DNA from: a bacterium | GTDB taxonomy: Bacteria; Patescibacteriota; Dojkabacteria; JAKAPS01; JAJZLI01 | Assembly: GCA_027459825.1 (NCBI GenBank) | Contig: DAIDGT010000007.1 | Coordinates: 1 to 47,473, forward strand | DNA length: 47,473 nucleotides | Reading direction: 5' to 3' | In this document: positions 1,187 to 17,753 of the stretch, in pieces | How the letters are laid out: the number at the start of each line of letters is the position of its first letter | Position numbering within the stretch: the stretch's first letter is position 1 | The notes under the pieces: generated by a model | Told to the model about the DNA's origin: nothing | What the model saw: the letters and a program-made list of their open reading frames with translations, nothing else | Databases searched by the model: none | Made by a program: the position numbers and the translations under genes

Positions 1187-1612
1187 TTATGAGACAGTGG
1201 CTATTTTGAAATAAGTTTGGTGGATATCTGAAATTATTTTTTTTATTTTATTTTTGTTTTTTATGTCATGTTCCCAGATTCTTATTATTTTCCAGTTAGC
1301 TTTTTTATAATAAAGATTTACAATTTTATCTCTTTTTTTATTTCTTGAGATTTTTGTTTCCCAGTAATTTGTGTTAGAAGATGGCATTCTGAGATGCTTT
1401 AAACATCCATGCCAAAAGCATGAATCGATAAAAATAACAGTTTTGTTTTTCTTGATTATGATATCTGGTTTTCCAAAATAGTTATTATTATTTTTTCTAT
1501 ATCTTATTCCTGCATTCCAAAGAAGTTGTCTGGCAGATTTTTCCAATTTTGTTTCTGCTCTCTTTACTTTTCTCATTATGTTGCTTCTGACAGTTTTACT
1601 TATTGTGTCCAT
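1187..1612 (-). CDS. vsr: Very short patch repair endonuclease (Vsr family)
   Basis: MDTISKTVRSNIMRKVKRAETKLEKSARQLLWNAGIRYRKN...GKPDIIIKKNKTVIFIDSCFWHGCLKH is characteristic of Vsr. Confidence 0.93.
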   Translation of the reverse strand: MDTISKTVRSNIMRKVKRAETKLEKSARQLLWNAGIRYRKNNNNYFGKPDIIIKKNKTVIFIDSCFWHGCLKHLRMPSSNTNYWETKISRNKKRDKIVNLYYKKANWKIIRIWEHDIKNKNKIKKIISDIHQTYFKIATVS

Positions 1613-2372
1613 TTAAGGTGGAATTTACTATTTCTGCTGGGTTTATTTTGAATTGCAACATGTTGGCGGTGGGTCTACCATTATCGCCTCCTTTTCGTTG
1701 GACTCCAATTTTACCAATTTTAAGGCCTGTTTGATTTGTTATTCTAACTTCTCCATTTCCATAAAAGTTCATGACTATTGACATTGGCAACAAAGACCAA
1801 ATGTTTGTTTCTTTTATATAAATTAACATCCATGTTGCAGATAGCGCATCTCTTCCTTTAAATATGTCATTTACCACCATAATTTTATTTTCTTTAAAGA
1901 ATTTGACAATTTTGTATCTCATTTTTTCGTCCATTTCATTTAATGACATTCTTCTTGAATCTTTTAATCCAGGTTTGGTGGGGGTTATTTCTCCAGTGAA
2001 TAATTTTAGAGCATTAGAAACGTCTTTTGGCATATCCCAAAGTTCACTATACTTATCTACCCACCTTTTATCTATTTGATTAAAGCCTTTAAGGTTTGTG
2101 ACTAATTTTATGGATATGTTTTCCGCCATGATTGTTTCTTTAAGATAGATGGTGATTTTAACCTGCACATCTGTTTTATATGAATTAGTTATTCTGACAG
2201 CGGTAACCTTTTTTATCTTCTCCAAGCGATAATGCATTATTTCTAACCAATGGCTAGCATCTTTATCTTTCTTCCAATCATTAAATTTCCTTGCCACGTC
2301 ATCTTCGTTTCTGAAACCATTTTTAGCTGTTGAGGAACCTTTTTTTATTAATTTTTCTATATTATTAGACAT
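1596..2372 (-). CDS. Type II restriction endonuclease (possibly HpaII-like)
   Basis: Lies between the m5C methyltransferase and vsr; C-terminal GKIGVQRKGGDNGRPTANMLQFKINPAEI motif typical of some type II REases. Confidence 0.7.
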   Translation of the reverse strand: MSNNIEKLIKKGSSTAKNGFRNEDDVARKFNDWKKDKDASHWLEIMHYRLEKIKKVTAVRITNSYKTDVQVKITIYLKETIMAENISIKLVTNLKGFNQIDKRWVDKYSELWDMPKDVSNALKLFTGEITPTKPGLKDSRRMSLNEMDEKMRYKIVKFFKENKIMVVNDIFKGRDALSATWMLIYIKETNIWSLLPMSIVMNFYGNGEVRITNQTGLKIGKIGVQRKGGDNGRPTANMLQFKINPAEIVNSTLNGHNK

Positions 2373-2373
2373 T

Positions 2374-3435
2374 TTATATTTCTAAACTTAATTGTTGAGT
2401 TGGAAGAATTATGTTTTTTGTGAAATGAGCTTTGTTTCTAGAGATTAAATTTGGATATGTTTTAATAACATTTTTAAAAATCGCTTTTAGCACAGGCACT
2501 GAAACGCTGTCTCCGAATTGTTTATATGCGATGTTTCTGTTAGGATGGATTATAAAGTTTTCTGGAAAGCCTTGTAGTCTTGCGCATTCTCTTGGAGTTA
2601 GCTTTCTAACTTTTCCATTGACTAGATATGCTCCTGTTTTGCTAGCTGCTCCTCCTCCATATGCGGAGAGAGTTATGCCTGAAGCGTGTATAGAATATAT
2701 TCTTTCTCCTTGTCCCCCCTTGTTTATTGTTCCTATTTGCAAAGGACTTCTTGGGTCAGTGACATTTTTTTTGTTTTCGTAAATATTTATATCTTTTCGA
2801 TTGATATAACATTTGGGATCTACTGATTCTTCTGGCTCAAGAATTTCTTCTATTGTTTTGAATATTCTGATTGGAGCTGGAAAAATAAAGTCTTTCACCT
2901 CTAAATCTTTTCTAAAAGCTATTATATAAACTCTTTCTCTTGCTTGGGGGAGATTATAATCGCTAGATCTAAGAATTTTCATAAAAGACGAGTAGCCTAT
3001 TTCTTTGAGTGTATTTTTTATTACAGTGATTGTATTGCCTTTATTGTGTTTCAATAAATTCTTGACATTTTCTAAGAATAAGATTTTAGGTTGATGGTAT
3101 TTTGCGATTCGGGCTATATCTTTAAATAAGGTGCCTCTTGTGTCATTGAATCCTAATCTTTTTCCTGAAATGCTAAAGGCTTGGCATGGAAAGCCTGCGC
3201 ATAAAACGTCATGGTGAGGAATTCTTTGTTCATTGATTTTTGTTATATCTCCGTGAGGAGTTTCCCAAAAATTAGTTACATATGTTTCTTGTGAATTTTT
3301 GTCCCATTCTGAGCTAAAAACGCATGTTCCTCCAAAATTTTCTAAAGCTATCCTAAACCCGCCTATTCCGGCAAAAAGATCTATAAAGGTAAATTTAGAG
3401 AAATTTTTATTTGTTTTATTTCCCTTTATTTCCAT
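2374..3435 (-). CDS. DNA (cytosine-5-)-methyltransferase
   Basis: FIDLFAGIGGFRIALE, GFPCQAFSISG, ENVKNLL, QARERVYIIAF and C-terminal LTPRECARLQGFPENF motifs. Confidence 0.97.
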   Translation of the reverse strand: MEIKGNKTNKNFSKFTFIDLFAGIGGFRIALENFGGTCVFSSEWDKNSQETYVTNFWETPHGDITKINEQRIPHHDVLCAGFPCQAFSISGKRLGFNDTRGTLFKDIARIAKYHQPKILFLENVKNLLKHNKGNTITVIKNTLKEIGYSSFMKILRSSDYNLPQARERVYIIAFRKDLEVKDFIFPAPIRIFKTIEEILEPEESVDPKCYINRKDINIYENKKNVTDPRSPLQIGTINKGGQGERIYSIHASGITLSAYGGGAASKTGAYLVNGKVRKLTPRECARLQGFPENFIIHPNRNIAYKQFGDSVSVPVLKAIFKNVIKTYPNLISRNKAHFTKNIILPTQQLSLEI

Positions 3436-4553: not shown

Positions 4554-7139
4554 ATGTTAAATTCTGTATTGTATATAATTCTAAATTTTAATTTATTAAA
4601 TCTTCTGCCTTTATTTTTTTCTTTTCTTGCTATATACGCCATATATGACATAGTTCGTTATTTTTATTTAAAGAGGTCGTATTTACATAGAAAAAGTGTA
4701 TTTTTAGAGATAATAGCTCCTAAGGTGTCATTAGTATCGTCTGTTGCCACGGATGAATTGTTTACTATGTTGCACGCTATAGGGTCGCAGGATAGAAGTA
4801 AATTTAGTTTTTTGAAATTTGCTCCCAAGGTTATATATTCATTTGAGATGGTATCCACCAGGAAGGGAGGTATTAGATATATAGCTCAAGTTGGTGAGGA
4901 TAAGGAGGATTTAGTAAGAAATATTTTTGTATCTTACATGCCTGGTGTGAAAATTAATAAGATTGAAGATCCTCTGACGAAAGATTTAGAGGGTAGTTAT
5001 AGTTTTGCTGAGATGGGTTTAAAGAATGATTTTTCATTTCCTCTTGATATTAAGACAGATTTTAGCAAGCATGATCCGATATCATATATTACGGGTCATA
5101 TGGCAAAGATAAAGAATAATGAGGAGATTGTATTTGTTCAGCTTATATTATCTCCTGTGTTTGAAAGGACGCGTGGATATATTTCAAGGAAGATAAGAAG
5201 GGTAAGAAATAAGGCTATAAATAGTGAAAGAATTCCTGAGGTATTTACGTCAAGGCCTATCAGTTATATTTATTATTTTCTTTTCTATCTCCCAATTGAG
5301 ATTACTCTTTGGTTACTATTTTGGGTTTTGAATATGTTATTTCTTCCTTTTACATTTGTATTATATGTTGTAACGATAGGTCATTCGAGGATATTTTTAT
5401 TAAATTCTCATAAAAAAGTTAGGTTATCTGATTTGAATGGGAGGGTATATCGTGATATTACGGAAAAATTGAATAAGGAGTTATTTGAAGTTAGTTTGAG
5501 ATTTTATGTTAAGTGTGCTGACATGAAGGAAACGGAGTCTCGTATGAAAGGTTTAGTTTCCTCTCTTGCGACATTTTCAAATGAGCAGTATCAGTCTTTT
5601 GTGTTAAAAGGAATGGGCAGGAGGGGTTTATTAGATATGAAAAATAGGCTTTTATCATTTGGCATAAACCCTGTGCTTTCGGTATCGGAAATTTCCAGTT
5701 TATATCATTTTCCGTATACGCTGACGACTAAAACTGAGGATATTGTGAAGAGCAAATCAAAAGATTTGCCATTAGATTTAAGTGTAAAGAATGAGGATAA
5801 TTTTGACAACGCGTTTGCTATGGGAAGCGACGGGAATAAGGTGGGATTGACAAGAGAGGAGAGGGCGCGTCATGTATACATATTAGGAGCGACGGGAACG
5901 GGTAAGAGCACATTGCTTTTGAATATGATAATGCATGATATTGTGGAGGGGAAAGGTGTTTGCGTTATAGATCCTCATGGTGATTTAGCGGAGGATATTT
6001 TGAAGTATATTCCCAGGGAGAGGGTTCAGGATACGATTTATCTTAATCCGTCAGACATAGTTCATCCTGTAGGGATTAATTTGCTTGAGATTCCCAAGAC
6101 GTTGAATGAGGATGAAATGGCAAGGGAGAAGGATTTGATAGCATCTGGTATGATATCGCTTTTTTCCAGACTTTATCCACCAAGGTTTATGGGTCCTAGG
6201 ATGGAGAATATATTAAGAAATGCGGTTTTAACTGTTTTAGAACTTAAAGACCCCACGTTATTTTTACTACAGAGGATATTGATAGATTCAAAGTATAGAA
6301 AGGTGGTTATTGAAAATTTAAAAGATCCTGTATTAAAACTTTTTTGGACAAAGGAGTTTCAGGGACTGGGGTCATATCAGAAAGCTCAGGCGGTTTCTCC
6401 AATTACGAGTAAGATTGGAAGATTTATAACATCTCCTTATCTTAGGTATATTTTGGGTCAGGCTCATTCTACTATAGATTTTGATAAGGTTATAAATGAG
6501 GGGAAGGTTTTGATTTGTAATTTATCAAAAGGGAGAATTGGAGAGGATGTTTCTGCATTGATTGGAGGGATTGTGACTGCAAAATTTGAACTTAGCGCAT
6601 TTAGGAGGGTGGATATTTTGGAAGAAAAAAGAAAGGATTTTTATATTTTCATTGATGAGTTTCAGAATTTTGCAACGGAGAGTTTTGTTCAAATTTTATC
6701 GGAGGCGAGAAAGTATCATTTGTCTTTAACGCTAGCGCACCAGACAACCGCTCAAGTTGATGATAAAGATCTCTTGAGGGTTATTCTAGCTAATGTAGGA
6801 ACCCTGATAGGTTTTAGGACAGGAAGTGCTCAAGATGAAAATATATTGTTACCCTACTTTGCTCCGGAGGTTTCGACTTTGGATATTTCTAATCTTTCAA
6901 ACCATAAATTTTTCATAAAAATTAACGCGGTATCTCCAAAAGACACATTTTCTGGAGAGACTGTGATGTATAAAGGCAAGGGCAGTAATCTGAAAGATAT
7001 GATTATTAAGGAATCGTTGAGTAGATATACCATAAAGAGGGAGTCTGTTGAGGAGATGATTTCTGAGATTTTTGAAGATGTTCAATATAGGAAGAGAGTA
7101 ATTCCTCAAAAGGAGAGGGATACTATTCTTCCCAGGTAG
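4554..7139 (+). CDS. TraG/VirD4-like type IV coupling or HerA-like ATPase with N-terminal transmembrane region
   Basis: Walker A GATGTGKSTLL, VIDPHGDLAEDIL, FYIFIDEFQNFATESFVQILSEARKYHLSLTLAHQ. Confidence 0.88.
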   Translation: MLNSVLYIILNFNLLNLLPLFFSFLAIYAIYDIVRYFYLKRSYLHRKSVFLEIIAPKVSLVSSVATDELFTMLHAIGSQDRSKFSFLKFAPKVIYSFEMVSTRKGGIRYIAQVGEDKEDLVRNIFVSYMPGVKINKIEDPLTKDLEGSYSFAEMGLKNDFSFPLDIKTDFSKHDPISYITGHMAKIKNNEEIVFVQLILSPVFERTRGYISRKIRRVRNKAINSERIPEVFTSRPISYIYYFLFYLPIEITLWLLFWVLNMLFLPFTFVLYVVTIGHSRIFLLNSHKKVRLSDLNGRVYRDITEKLNKELFEVSLRFYVKCADMKETESRMKGLVSSLATFSNEQYQSFVLKGMGRRGLLDMKNRLLSFGINPVLSVSEISSLYHFPYTLTTKTEDIVKSKSKDLPLDLSVKNEDNFDNAFAMGSDGNKVGLTREERARHVYILGATGTGKSTLLLNMIMHDIVEGKGVCVIDPHGDLAEDILKYIPRERVQDTIYLNPSDIVHPVGINLLEIPKTLNEDEMAREKDLIASGMISLFSRLYPPRFMGPRMENILRNAVLTVLELKDPTLFLLQRILIDSKYRKVVIENLKDPVLKLFWTKEFQGLGSYQKAQAVSPITSKIGRFITSPYLRYILGQAHSTIDFDKVINEGKVLICNLSKGRIGEDVSALIGGIVTAKFELSAFRRVDILEEKRKDFYIFIDEFQNFATESFVQILSEARKYHLSLTLAHQTTAQVDDKDLLRVILANVGTLIGFRTGSAQDENILLPYFAPEVSTLDISNLSNHKFFIKINAVSPKDTFSGETVMYKGKGSNLKDMIIKESLSRYTIKRESVEEMISEIFEDVQYRKRVIPQKERDTILPR

Positions 7140-7145
7140 TTTTTT

Positions 7146-7946
7146 ATGAAAAATAGTTTAACAAAAAGACAAGTTGAGATATTGAATTTAATTTTCAAGT
7201 TTAGGTTTGTGTCGATTTTGCAGATACAGAGGTTGTTTTCTCACAAGTATAGCAGCAGGATAAATAAATGGATTTTATCTATGATGCAGGAGGGGTATAT
7301 AGGAAGGGTATACGATAGGTATGTTATGAAGGGGAGATTATCTTCTATTTTGTATCTTGATAAAAGGGGTATTGTATATATCAAGAATGAATATATGCTA
7401 AAAGGGAGCGGATATTTTAAGAAATTGTCAAGAGAGGAGAAGGTGTCGTTTGTAACAAAGGATCATTCTTTGAAGACTTTGGATATATATATTTTATTGC
7501 TTGAGTATGCAAATGAGCATGGGCATATTTTAAAGTATTTTTCTAAAGCGGAACTGTCTCAAATGAGTCTTTATAGAGATATAAAGGCAGATGGGTATTT
7601 TATATACGAGACGCATATTGGCAAGAGGGGTGTATTTTTAGAGATTGATCTTGAGAGTGAGTCAAGTAAGACATTTTTAAAAAAGATTAGAAAGTATATA
7701 GATTTCTATTTTACTTTTAAATGGAGTGTTTCCGCTGAGGATATTTTTCCTATAGTTTGTATAATTTGTGTTACACACGCGAGAAAGGTTTTTTTATTAA
7801 ATGAGATTGAGAAAATAATGAGATTGTATGTAGATTTGCTTATTATATTTAAGATTGTCACGTTTAAGGACATTCAGGAAAAGGGTTTTATGTCAGAGAT
7901 TTGGTTAGAGCCGTTTATGTCTAATAGCAAGGTATTTCCTGTATAG
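7146..7946 (+). CDS. Replication-relaxation family protein
   Basis: MKNSLTKRQVEILNLIFKFRFVSILQIQRLF...SSILYLDKRG winged-helix start; 6 bp after the TraG-like gene. Confidence 0.75.
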   Translation: MKNSLTKRQVEILNLIFKFRFVSILQIQRLFSHKYSSRINKWILSMMQEGYIGRVYDRYVMKGRLSSILYLDKRGIVYIKNEYMLKGSGYFKKLSREEKVSFVTKDHSLKTLDIYILLLEYANEHGHILKYFSKAELSQMSLYRDIKADGYFIYETHIGKRGVFLEIDLESESSKTFLKKIRKYIDFYFTFKWSVSAEDIFPIVCIICVTHARKVFLLNEIEKIMRLYVDLLIIFKIVTFKDIQEKGFMSEIWLEPFMSNSKVFPV

Positions 7947-10491: not shown

Positions 10492-10607
10492 AAACCTTAT
10501 TATATCATATTTAATTGGTATGAGTTCGTGTGGGTTATAAAAATAATAGTGAAATGTAAAATGGGCTTATTTTTTATTCCTGATTTTATTATAAAGCAAT
10601 GAATTTT

Positions 10608-10690
10608 TTTGTGGTAAAAAAGAAACGGGGGAGAGCAAGCTTTGGATTTATACATCATGTATAAACTGTGGGCTTGCTACTCCCCTTTTG
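10608..10690 (-). terminator. Strong Rho-independent terminator with nested stem
   Basis: GGGGAGAGCAAGC...GCTTGCTACTCCCC outer stem, inner TTTATACAT/ATGTATAAA; followed on the minus strand by GTTTCTTTTTT; directly downstream of the 10693-10887 ORF. Confidence 0.75.
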
Positions 10691-10692
10691 GT

Positions 10693-10887
10693 CTACTTCC
10701 GCCGAGAGTGTGCTGCTATAAGCAGCAGTGACAGTCCAGCGTATCCTGAGACTAGCACGGTGGCCATCATGGCCATTGATGTGTGGATCAGGGCATGTGC
10801 TTCATGCACATTAAAAACCCTGACACACAGGCTTCCCAAGAACACGTAGAGCAGGACCAGTCCGGACCAAAACATTACGTGTCTCAT
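10693..10887 (-). CDS. Small two-helix membrane protein
   Basis: 64 aa, two hydrophobic segments; strong Shine-Dalgarno AAGGAGGGG upstream of ATG; own terminator; GC-rich compared with flanks. Confidence 0.7.
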   Translation of the reverse strand: MRHVMFWSGLVLLYVFLGSLCVRVFNVHEAHALIHTSMAMMATVLVSGYAGLSLLLIAAHSRRK

Positions 10888-11048
10888 GTAGACCCCTCCT
10901 TTCTTCTGATAGAAGATCCCTCATCTAATGAGGAATGTTCTATACTGATTAGAGACAATTGTAATTATATCACAAAACACCCTTACATTTAATATTATAA
11001 GATATATCACTATATGAAAAGGAGTTATATAATATTGGTTTATTTAGA

Positions 11049-11720
11049 TTACCTTTGTGTTCCTGATAGTAATCTAATTAATTCTTCTGGGATACTAAAC
11101 TTATTTGTTTTATTGGAGTATTCAAAATATGCATAATTTTCAGGTAATGGTCCTATTTGATTTAGTTGAACACCTTCTTGATTTGTGAATTTTATCTCTA
11201 TTATTGTATACCCTAATTTTTTGGCTTCTTCAATAAAAAATCTAGGGGTTTCTTCATCTTCATCTAGTGATTTGGGATCAATTTGTATAAGGAGTCTATT
11301 TGGAACTGATTGCTTGGAATTATCATTATCTATTTTTTGAAGAAATCTCATGTTATCAATTTGAGCAATTCCTCTATGGGATAAAACATCTTCTGTGGTT
11401 GGACCATATTGATACGATTCATAAACTCCCAACTCTGGATCGTATGAAACTACTCTTAAAACAAGAGGGTTGATATTCTTGTGTTTACTAATCTCTGTAA
11501 TTAATCTATAACTATGAGTTTGTTCTAGTAGAGCAAGTAATTCATTTGACTCCATCTCTAATAATATATATCCTCCCACTCTAGGCAGACTTTTTTCTTC
11601 AAATTGCGAAGTAAATCGTCTTATTATATACCATAAATCTTCTTGACTTAGTTCTTGTGTTGGTTCTCTAACGCCTCCTTCTGTCTCTATTTCTTGCATA
11701 ATATTGATCTGATATATCAT
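11049..11720 (-). CDS. Hypothetical protein
   Basis: 223-aa intact ORF. Confidence 0.7.
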   Translation of the reverse strand: MIYQINIMQEIETEGGVREPTQELSQEDLWYIIRRFTSQFEEKSLPRVGGYILLEMESNELLALLEQTHSYRLITEISKHKNINPLVLRVVSYDPELGVYESYQYGPTTEDVLSHRGIAQIDNMRFLQKIDNDNSKQSVPNRLLIQIDPKSLDEDEETPRFFIEEAKKLGYTIIEIKFTNQEGVQLNQIGPLPENYAYFEYSNKTNKFSIPEELIRLLSGTQR

Positions 11721-11767: not shown

Positions 11768-13455
<1,688 letters not shown>

Positions 13456-13487: not shown

Positions 13488-13850
13488 TTGGGACAGGGGT
13501 GGAAGGATTTTTATGCAAAAGAGACTTTGCTCCCTCCACCCCTGAATGGGACTCACATGGCCTTTGTCACCATCATAAAACTGGGAAGTTCCCTTCTTTA
13601 TTTTGGCGCCTTCGGCACTTTAGGGGGAACCTTAACTTGAGCTCAACGACCTCTTTTAGGCATTCCTTGGTTAGGTTTGATCCTTACGAGGTTTGGCTCT
13701 TGTTTTGGTTTCCATCTTAGGAATGATTCCTCGAAGGTACTATTTGGCACCTCCCTTAACTTGTAACCTATGGTATCAGGCTACTAGTTGTGAATACGCT
13801 TTCCTCCTTTAAAACCCATCTGAGAGGGATGTTACTCTTTATGTTTTTCT
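13488..13850 (-). ncRNA. Candidate structured RNA of unknown family (approximate boundaries)
   Basis: GC-rich intergenic block between divergent genes. Minus-strand stems: CAGGGGUGGAGGGA/UCCUUCCACCCCUG (14 bp, one G-U), AGGUGC/GUACCU (one G-U), AGCCU/AGGUU (one G-U), GUGCC-GAA-GGCGC (one U-G), GUUCCC/GGGAAC. Wobbles become A-C mismatches on the plus strand. Confidence 0.55.
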
Positions 13851-13904
13851 TTGTCAATAATTACAATGTAAATTATTTCTATATATGCTATATACTTATT
13901 AAGT

Positions 13905-14525
13905 ATGAATTTAAAATACAATAATAGTTACATAAAAGCCAAAGAGGAGATAGTGAGAATTAAAAAAAATAATTCTAGTATACCTTCTGGACAGAAGATA
14001 ACCTCTGCTTTTCCTGTGCTTGATTTAGGTATTAAACCCAATATTCCTAAAGATAAATGGAATATTCATATTTTTGGTTTAGTAAAAAACGAAAAGAATA
14101 TCTCATTTAATGAACTTATAAACTTTCCTAAGACAGAAATAACTGCTGATTTTAATTGTGTTACAGGATGGACAAAAGAAAATATCAAGTGGTCGGGTGT
14201 AAGTTTTAAATATATTGTAGATTTGGTTGGCATATATCCTGAAGCTAAATTTGTAATACAGAGTGGTTATGATGGGTATACAACGAACCTTCCTCTGGAG
14301 AGCATGTACAGGGATGATGTGATTGTGGCATATAAGCTTTATGAAAAGGATATTCCTTCTGAGCATGGAGGTCTTGTTAGGGTTATTGTCCCTTCACGTT
14401 ATGGGTGGAAAGGTTCTAAATTTTTAAACGGTATATTTTTTTCTAATGTAGATATTCCTGGTTTTTGGGAGACAAGAGGGTATCATAACAATGGAGATTG
14501 GAAAAAAGAAGAAAGATATGGTTAA
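13905..14525 (+). CDS. Molybdopterin-dependent oxidoreductase (sulfite oxidase-like catalytic domain)
   Basis: WNIHIFGLV..., DFNCVTGWTKENIKWSGVSFKYIVDLV, GYTTNLPLE, HGGLVRVIVPSRYGWKGSKFLNGI. Confidence 0.9.
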   Translation: MNLKYNNSYIKAKEEIVRIKKNNSSIPSGQKITSAFPVLDLGIKPNIPKDKWNIHIFGLVKNEKNISFNELINFPKTEITADFNCVTGWTKENIKWSGVSFKYIVDLVGIYPEAKFVIQSGYDGYTTNLPLESMYRDDVIVAYKLYEKDIPSEHGGLVRVIVPSRYGWKGSKFLNGIFFSNVDIPGFWETRGYHNNGDWKKEERYG

Positions 14526-15956: not shown

Positions 15957-16288
15957 ATATAAGATTGTCTAATGTCCTAAAAATATTTACATACCTTAGT
16001 ATTGCTATTTCAATAGTTTTAATATTTATTATGGTATTGAAAGGTAGTGTATATACACACTTTCCTTATAAGTATAATAGTATTGAATCTTTCTTATATA
16101 GTAATTATATTCTACATTTTAACTTTACATCTATTCTTTTTGTTCCAATAATCATTATTATTTTGGCCCCATTAGCAAGAGTGATGCTTTCAATACTTGA
16201 GTATATATATGAAAAAAATATCAAATTTGTATTTATTACATTGATAGTATTCTCCCTTTTAATAATTTCTCTTTTTTTAATTTCTTAA
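15953..16288 (+). CDS. DUF1634-like membrane protein
   Basis: Overlaps the TauE gene by 4 bp; three hydrophobic helices and IIIIILAPLARVMLS. Confidence 0.7.
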   Translation: MNIRLSNVLKIFTYLSIAISIVLIFIMVLKGSVYTHFPYKYNSIESFLYSNYILHFNFTSILFVPIIIIILAPLARVMLSILEYIYEKNIKFVFITLIVFSLLIISLFLIS

Positions 16289-17007
16289 AATCCAGGTACA
16301 GAGGTTATTGTTCCATCCATTTGTTGGAAAGGTTTATTTTCTACATTTGTAGGTGTTTTTTCAAATAATTTAATTGATACTATAGAGTATCCAATGAAAT
16401 ATCCTAAGTTACCGACTACTCCTACTACGATATTTTTTGTAAAAAGATCTGGAAGTGATTCTAATACTACAAGTATGAATAGTCCAAGAGCAATAAAGAA
16501 AGGTTTCCATGCTGCTTGGGGATCAACTTTTTTAAATCTAATGAAATATGATATTAATATTCCGACAATTACTGTCCCAAAAAGAAGATTTGCTATTGCT
16601 GTAAAATATGAAGGTATTTTTCCATTTGTAATTAAAAATACATCGTTCGTATGTAATGCAGGATATTGTAATATAATAAGTCCATTGATTATAAAGACAA
16701 AAATTGGTGAGTATATAAACAATTTGTCCATTATACCCTTAGGATCAGTTTTCATTGCATATGCCATTCTGTATGCATAACTAATAGCAAATCCTAATAC
16801 AAGCTTACTTGCTGCATGAAAATATGTATAATCACTTCTAAATATAAGCCCTGTGGTATATACAAGTATTTCTGTTGATAGTAGTATATCTGCGTATACA
16901 AAATATGTGGCAAGTTTTGACTTTTCTGTCTTATTTCGTATTGATATAACAATTCCTAGTGCATACCCTAGTGTTGCTGCAATAATTTGCGATATTATAA
17001 TTGGCAT
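16285..17007 (-). CDS. Multi-pass membrane protein (paralog A)
   Basis: 240 aa; shares long segments with 17067-17753. Confidence 0.8.
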   Translation of the reverse strand: MPIIISQIIAATLGYALGIVISIRNKTEKSKLATYFVYADILLSTEILVYTTGLIFRSDYTYFHAASKLVLGFAISYAYRMAYAMKTDPKGIMDKLFIYSPIFVFIINGLIILQYPALHTNDVFLITNGKIPSYFTAIANLLFGTVIVGILISYFIRFKKVDPQAAWKPFFIALGLFILVVLESLPDLFTKNIVVGVVGNLGYFIGYSIVSIKLFEKTPTNVENKPFQQMDGTITSVPGF

Positions 17008-17066
17008 ATAAAAGATATTACCATACTTTATTTGTTAATATTTTGACTTAAGGTAATGTTTTCTTT

Positions 17067-17753
17067 TTATTCCATATTAGGAGCTTTTTCGAATAATTTT
17101 ATTGAAACTATTGCATATCCTATTATGTTGCCTAAACTTCCTACAATCCTTGCTGTATAAGATTTTGGGAAAATATTAGGAAGTGAATCTAATAAAGAAA
17201 TTACTAACAAACCCAATGCAATAAAGAAAGGTTTCCATGCTGCCTGAGGATCAGCTTTCCGTATCTCTAAAAATGAAGATATTAATATTCCAACGATTAC
17301 TATCCCGTATACAAAATTTATTACAGCTGTAAAATATGCAGGTGTAAGACCAGTTGTTATTGAGAAGATATCATTTCTATGTAGTACAGGAGAGTTGAGT
17401 ATAATAAATGCATCAATTGTGAACATTACTATTGGAGAGTATATAAGGATATTATCTATTAATTTTCTTGGGCCCACTTTTATAGTGTATGCCATCCTGT
17501 ACGCGTAGCTAATAGCAAACCCTACCACTAATTTACTTAATACATCAATGTAAGTATAGCTATTTCTAAATATAAGCGCAGCTGTATATATCAATATTGC
17601 TGAAGATAATAATATATCCGCGTATACAAAATATGTAGCTAATCTGGAGTGCTCCTTTTTATTTCTTATTAATACAACAATACCAAGAATATACCCTAGT
17701 ATAACTGCTATAATTTGGGTTATAATAATGGACATATGAGTATAGTATAACAA
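17067..17753 (-). CDS. Multi-pass membrane protein (paralog B)
   Basis: Shares ATYFVYADILLS, GFAISYAYRMAY, DPQAAWKPFFIALGL and GYSIVSIKLFEK-type segments with paralog A. Confidence 0.8.
   Translation of the reverse strand: MLYYTHMSIIITQIIAVILGYILGIVVLIRNKKEHSRLATYFVYADILLSSAILIYTAALIFRNSYTYIDVLSKLVVGFAISYAYRMAYTIKVGPRKLIDNILIYSPIVMFTIDAFIILNSPVLHRNDIFSITTGLTPAYFTAVINFVYGIVIVGILISSFLEIRKADPQAAWKPFFIALGLLVISLLDSLPNIFPKSYTARIVGSLGNIIGYAIVSIKLFEKAPNME

Follow-up and report, generated by a model that had tools for sequence, protein, structure and literature searches.

A predicted structured RNA of about 330 nt, possibly lineage-restricted, in the leader of a bacterial histidine phosphatase gene

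Introduction

Searching long GC-rich intergenic regions is an established way of finding structured RNAs (PMC8632094, PMC11109978). The orphan candidates recovered from such regions are long, have a complex predicted fold and match no known family, and the region described here is like them in all three respects. However, published orphan motifs have at least a few homologs, whereas no homolog with its fold was found for this region. Two other kinds of RNA are close to it. Riboswitches and long 5' leaders lie between a promoter and a coding sequence on the same strand, as this region does, but the region has no known aptamer and no visible expression platform, and it is not conserved with its gene. 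Bacterial RNase P RNA (RF00010) and tmRNA (RF00023) are similar to it in length and fold strength, but neither family model matches it.

The region lies in a 47,473-nt stretch of contig DAIDGT010000007.1 (GenBank assembly GCA_027459825.1, Dojkabacteria), analysed as a whole and called the window below. An earlier note on this DNA had proposed an unassigned structured RNA on the minus strand, which could be a divergent housekeeping RNA, a large leader of the neighbouring phosphatase gene or a new RNA class. Here, we follow up these proposals.

Results

A GC-rich island between two divergent genes

The gap between the histidine phosphatase gene and the divergent plus-strand gene (Table 1) measures 449 nt and contains a GC island, 45% G+C in 13490-13823 (local maximum 0.465) versus 30.5% for the genome. 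The gap was first noted as visibly GC-richer than its surroundings, and a recount gave the same 29 G+C among the 60 bases of 13501-13560; CAAGTTAAGG was likewise found twice, as had been reported.

Table 1. Features of the phosphatase leader region and its flanks (window coordinates)
Feature	Position	Strand	Remarks
Histidine phosphatase (branch 1; Pfam His_Phos_1)	12844..13455	-	downstream of leader
Structured RNA / 5' leader, whole (predicted)	13490..13823	-	334 nt, 45% GC; fold z -5.1 to -5.7
14-bp hairpin CAGGGGUGGAGGGA/UCCUUCCACCCCUG	13494..13544	-	inner GCAAA/UUUGC stem
3' domain	13565..13631	-	GUGCC-GAA-GGCGC and AAGGUUCCC/GGGAACUU; no G001 counterpart
5' domain	13632..13802	-	hairpins GUAGCCU/AGGUUAC, GGAGGUGC/GUACCUUC, AGGAA/UUCCU and a long imperfect stem; alignable to G001
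Sigma-70-like promoter TTGACA-N17-TAACAT (predicted)	13829..13857	-	10/12 consensus matches; predicted start ~13822
Divergent gene, oxidoreductase molybdopterin-binding domain (MsrP/sulfite-oxidase-like)	13905..14525	+	domain match

What does high GC content mean in this genome? In 759 kb of the 764-kb genome, DNA that lies outside ORFs of 80 aa or longer and has 40% GC or more over 150 nt formed 30 clusters. Twenty-four of them overlap tRNA genes, RNase P or the rRNA operon, the last being a run in L067 inferred from a tRNA-Ile/Ala spacer and from composition. Thus, GC-rich non-ORF DNA is here a good predictor of structured RNA. Four further clusters have no strong fold; one of the four resembles the gene for the ATP synthase c subunit. 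The two strongly folding exceptions that are left, 10601-10975 and the present region, both lie in the window. A GC-rich stretch at L063:3976-4125 (G000:C3) holds a transposase-like fragment with stops, read by eye.

The island at 10601-10975 consists of a small gene and a terminator-like hairpin. It belongs to a stretch of ~1.16 kb (10527-11691) between sufB and a queuine tRNA-ribosyltransferase gene that is missing in the sister genome G001, where 78 bp are found. GC content in this stretch reaches 52%, the terminator-like hairpin is long and the fold z is about -8; the stretch carries a 64-aa membrane-protein-like ORF with a strong SD (10693-10887, minus) and a 223-aa ORF without a Pfam match. 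A search for the 64-aa protein in 58 genomes and in phages and plasmids gave no relative, and alignment of the island with the present region gave nothing above shuffles. Elsewhere in the window, an R.HinP1I-like restriction endonuclease adjoining a C5-cytosine methylase (1596-3435) and, at 4554-7946, TraG/TrwB-like and replication-relaxation proteins look together like a mobile element, and two similar membrane-protein-like genes of 240 and 228 aa, the first without a Pfam match, lie in tandem on the minus strand at 16285-17753.

The minus strand is predicted to fold strongly

We compared the predicted stability of the region with that of dinucleotide shuffles (fold z). The minus strand of 13490-13823 reached -118 kcal/mol (z -5.08, with 0 of 100 shuffles as good; -5.68 in a repeat test) and the plus strand -113 kcal/mol (z -2.25, with 2 of 100 shuffles as good; range -2.3 to -2.7). 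The region is therefore more stable than its dinucleotide shuffles, which is the general mark of structured ncRNAs. When a 200-nt frame was slid along the whole window on both strands, no z was lower than that of 13601-13800 on the minus strand. The same test gave z -4.7 for the genome's own RNase P RNA and, for its own tmRNA, -4.3 on one strand and -5.8 on the other, so the fold strength of the region is similar to or above that of both. Taken as a prediction from one sequence, the proposed structured RNA on the minus strand is well supported by the fold z, the GC island and a minus-strand promoter kept in G001.

Most of the stems named in the earlier note recur on the minus strand in either the minimum-energy or the centroid fold, but AAGGUUCCC/GGGAACUU and CGAGG/CCUCG face competing pairings, and alternative pairings compete in the minimum-energy fold of the 3' domain. 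The 14-bp hairpin proved real (arms 13494-13507 and 13531-13544, 14 nt, 93% complementary). Because no U-run stands behind it, this hairpin is not an intrinsic terminator.

The region lies between a promoter and the phosphatase gene

By consensus alone, the predicted promoter is not above chance (1 found versus 1.7 expected). G001 has an equivalent site, TTGACA-N17-TAAGAT, inside a block of 86% identity that runs through the divergent gene. Promoter and phosphatase coding sequence flank the region on the same strand, which is the arrangement of a cis-regulatory leader, and neither an intrinsic terminator nor a second promoter was found between the 14-bp hairpin and the phosphatase ATG. The simplest reading is thus a phosphatase mRNA that begins with a long leader, and a phosphatase leader is the best fit among the options first raised. 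No expression platform (terminator or SD sequestration) was recognisable in the region, and no SD was found upstream of the ATG at 13455. This start is backed by G001, whose counterpart is 76% identical to the phosphatase gene product; the product of 12844..13455 reached no NCBIfam cut-off. From promoter to ATG, the stretch upstream of the phosphatase measures 367 nt here versus ~143 nt in G001.

No relative with the same structure was found

We built covariance models from the single sequence, R1 (13628-13790) and R2 (13493-13632). R1 found no homolog in 145 relatives (where one match was at chance level, E 0.086), in 86 genomes of the class or in 380 of the phylum, and R2 found none in the 145 relatives or the 86 genomes of the class. 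Since single-sequence models are weak and the filters were strict, diverged homologs may have escaped. BLAST against its own genome, relatives, plasmids, phages and E. coli genomes returned the region itself and matches of 20-30 nt, of which the short G001 match is the conserved promoter. A pattern scan of viral contigs gave no match. The proposal of a new RNA class is thus left without comparative support in the relatives searched.

A scan of genome contigs for the neighbouring gene found the sister MAG JAJZLI (G001) only, which was the only same-genus genome compared. Its leader, 143 nt long and AU-rich, can be aligned with the 5'-most ~190 nt of the RNA. The alignment score was reached by 0 of 500 shuffles and, among 2154 real stretches of relatives' DNA, by none in two of three scorings and by 2 in the third. 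From these scores, the two aligned sequences are probably homologous, and the region is probably not a clean insertion. G001 has no counterpart of the 3'-terminal ~145 nt, in which the 14-bp hairpin, the strongest one, lies.

Does G001 retain the structure? (i) Its leader is no more stably folded than expected by chance (z -0.6); (ii) it matched neither R1 nor R2; and (iii) the alignment covers both sides of 25 pairs, of which 7 are broken, 5 differ but can still pair and 13 are the same (18/25 pairable), counts that give no support for structural constraint. Conservation in relatives, on which the earlier note had made the RNA claim depend, speaks partly against it: no structured homolog was found in the relatives searched, but the promoter is kept and the 5' ~190 nt are alignable in G001. 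The two sequences compared are compatible both with decay of the RNA in G001 and with its origin or expansion in the present genome.

Discussion

The account we prefer, at about an even chance, is a lineage-restricted structured ncRNA of ~330 nt that is made as the 5' leader of the histidine phosphatase gene. The minus strand would be transcribed from the conserved sigma-70-like promoter, and the transcript would form the predicted strong fold. The RNA would then continue, with no terminator, into the phosphatase gene and would possibly be processed, and the fold may control or stabilise the downstream phosphatase mRNA through translation or stability. Because no relative searched keeps the structure, both the function and the reality of this RNA rest on one sequence. 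That it represents a large (~330 nt) multi-branched RNA class of one narrow small-genome lineage, lost by decay in the sister, seems to us improbable.

The main rival, which we rate as somewhat unlikely, is a functionless, fast-diverging leader into which, in this species, GC-rich hairpin DNA was inserted (foreign or decayed mobile sequence, for instance), in which case the good folding would come merely from inserted inverted repeats. The region is indeed absent or unstructured in the sister species, with no counterpart for its 3' 145 nt, and the island at 10601-10975, also strongly folding and only 2.5 kb off, is absent from G001 too, which suggests recent insertions in this stretch of the contig. 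However, BLAST against its own genome found 13490-13823 in single copy, neither terminal repeats nor a flanking duplication were found around it, and phages, plasmids and E. coli genomes had no match. Moreover, z is also low in the 5' half, at a distance from the perfect hairpin, and this half can be aligned to the G001 leader and thus is not a simple insertion; the strand asymmetry of the fold favours an RNA as well. Could the RNA instead stand alone, as a new or trans-acting class that lies before the phosphatase gene by chance and is freed by processing? Its length and multi-branched fold go beyond the usual leader elements and it has a predicted promoter of its own, but no terminator or second promoter separates it from the phosphatase gene and no homolog was found in the relatives, class or phylum genomes searched, so that we hold this to be quite unlikely.

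Were the region instead a divergent form of a known RNA (RNase P, tmRNA, 6S, SRP, an intron or a riboswitch), its size would be in keeping with RNase P, tmRNA or a large leader. In Rfam 15, however, nothing reached the gathering score, and nothing even E<=10 save chance snoRNA matches. The doubts first voiced about RNase P and tmRNA were justified: neither family model matched the region, and the real RNase P (G000:C6:16511-16843, 180 bits) and the real tmRNA (G000:C11:17165-17584, 61.5 bits) are sited elsewhere in the genome, so the region is neither. The 'divergent housekeeping RNA' was accordingly rejected for these two, and membership of any known class is very unlikely. We give still less credence to a decayed protein-coding gene, which could account for the perfect SD-like AAAGGAGG near the RNA 5' end (13799-13806, minus) and for a minus frame with ~45 open codons. 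No ATG, GTG or TTG follows this SD at normal spacing, and the view that the gap holds no convincing CDS is borne out by stops in all minus frames, by read-through frames without Pfam or PHROGs match and by a tblastn search that gave no match.

If the region is not functional, it would be a warning that a GC island and a fold z-score alone can mark species-specific DNA. If it is functional, it would add a large structured RNA to a lineage whose genome measures only 0.76 Mb and in whose scanned parts the RNA families seen were tRNA, RNase P and tmRNA and no others, and its loss in the sister species would show how quickly such RNAs turn over.
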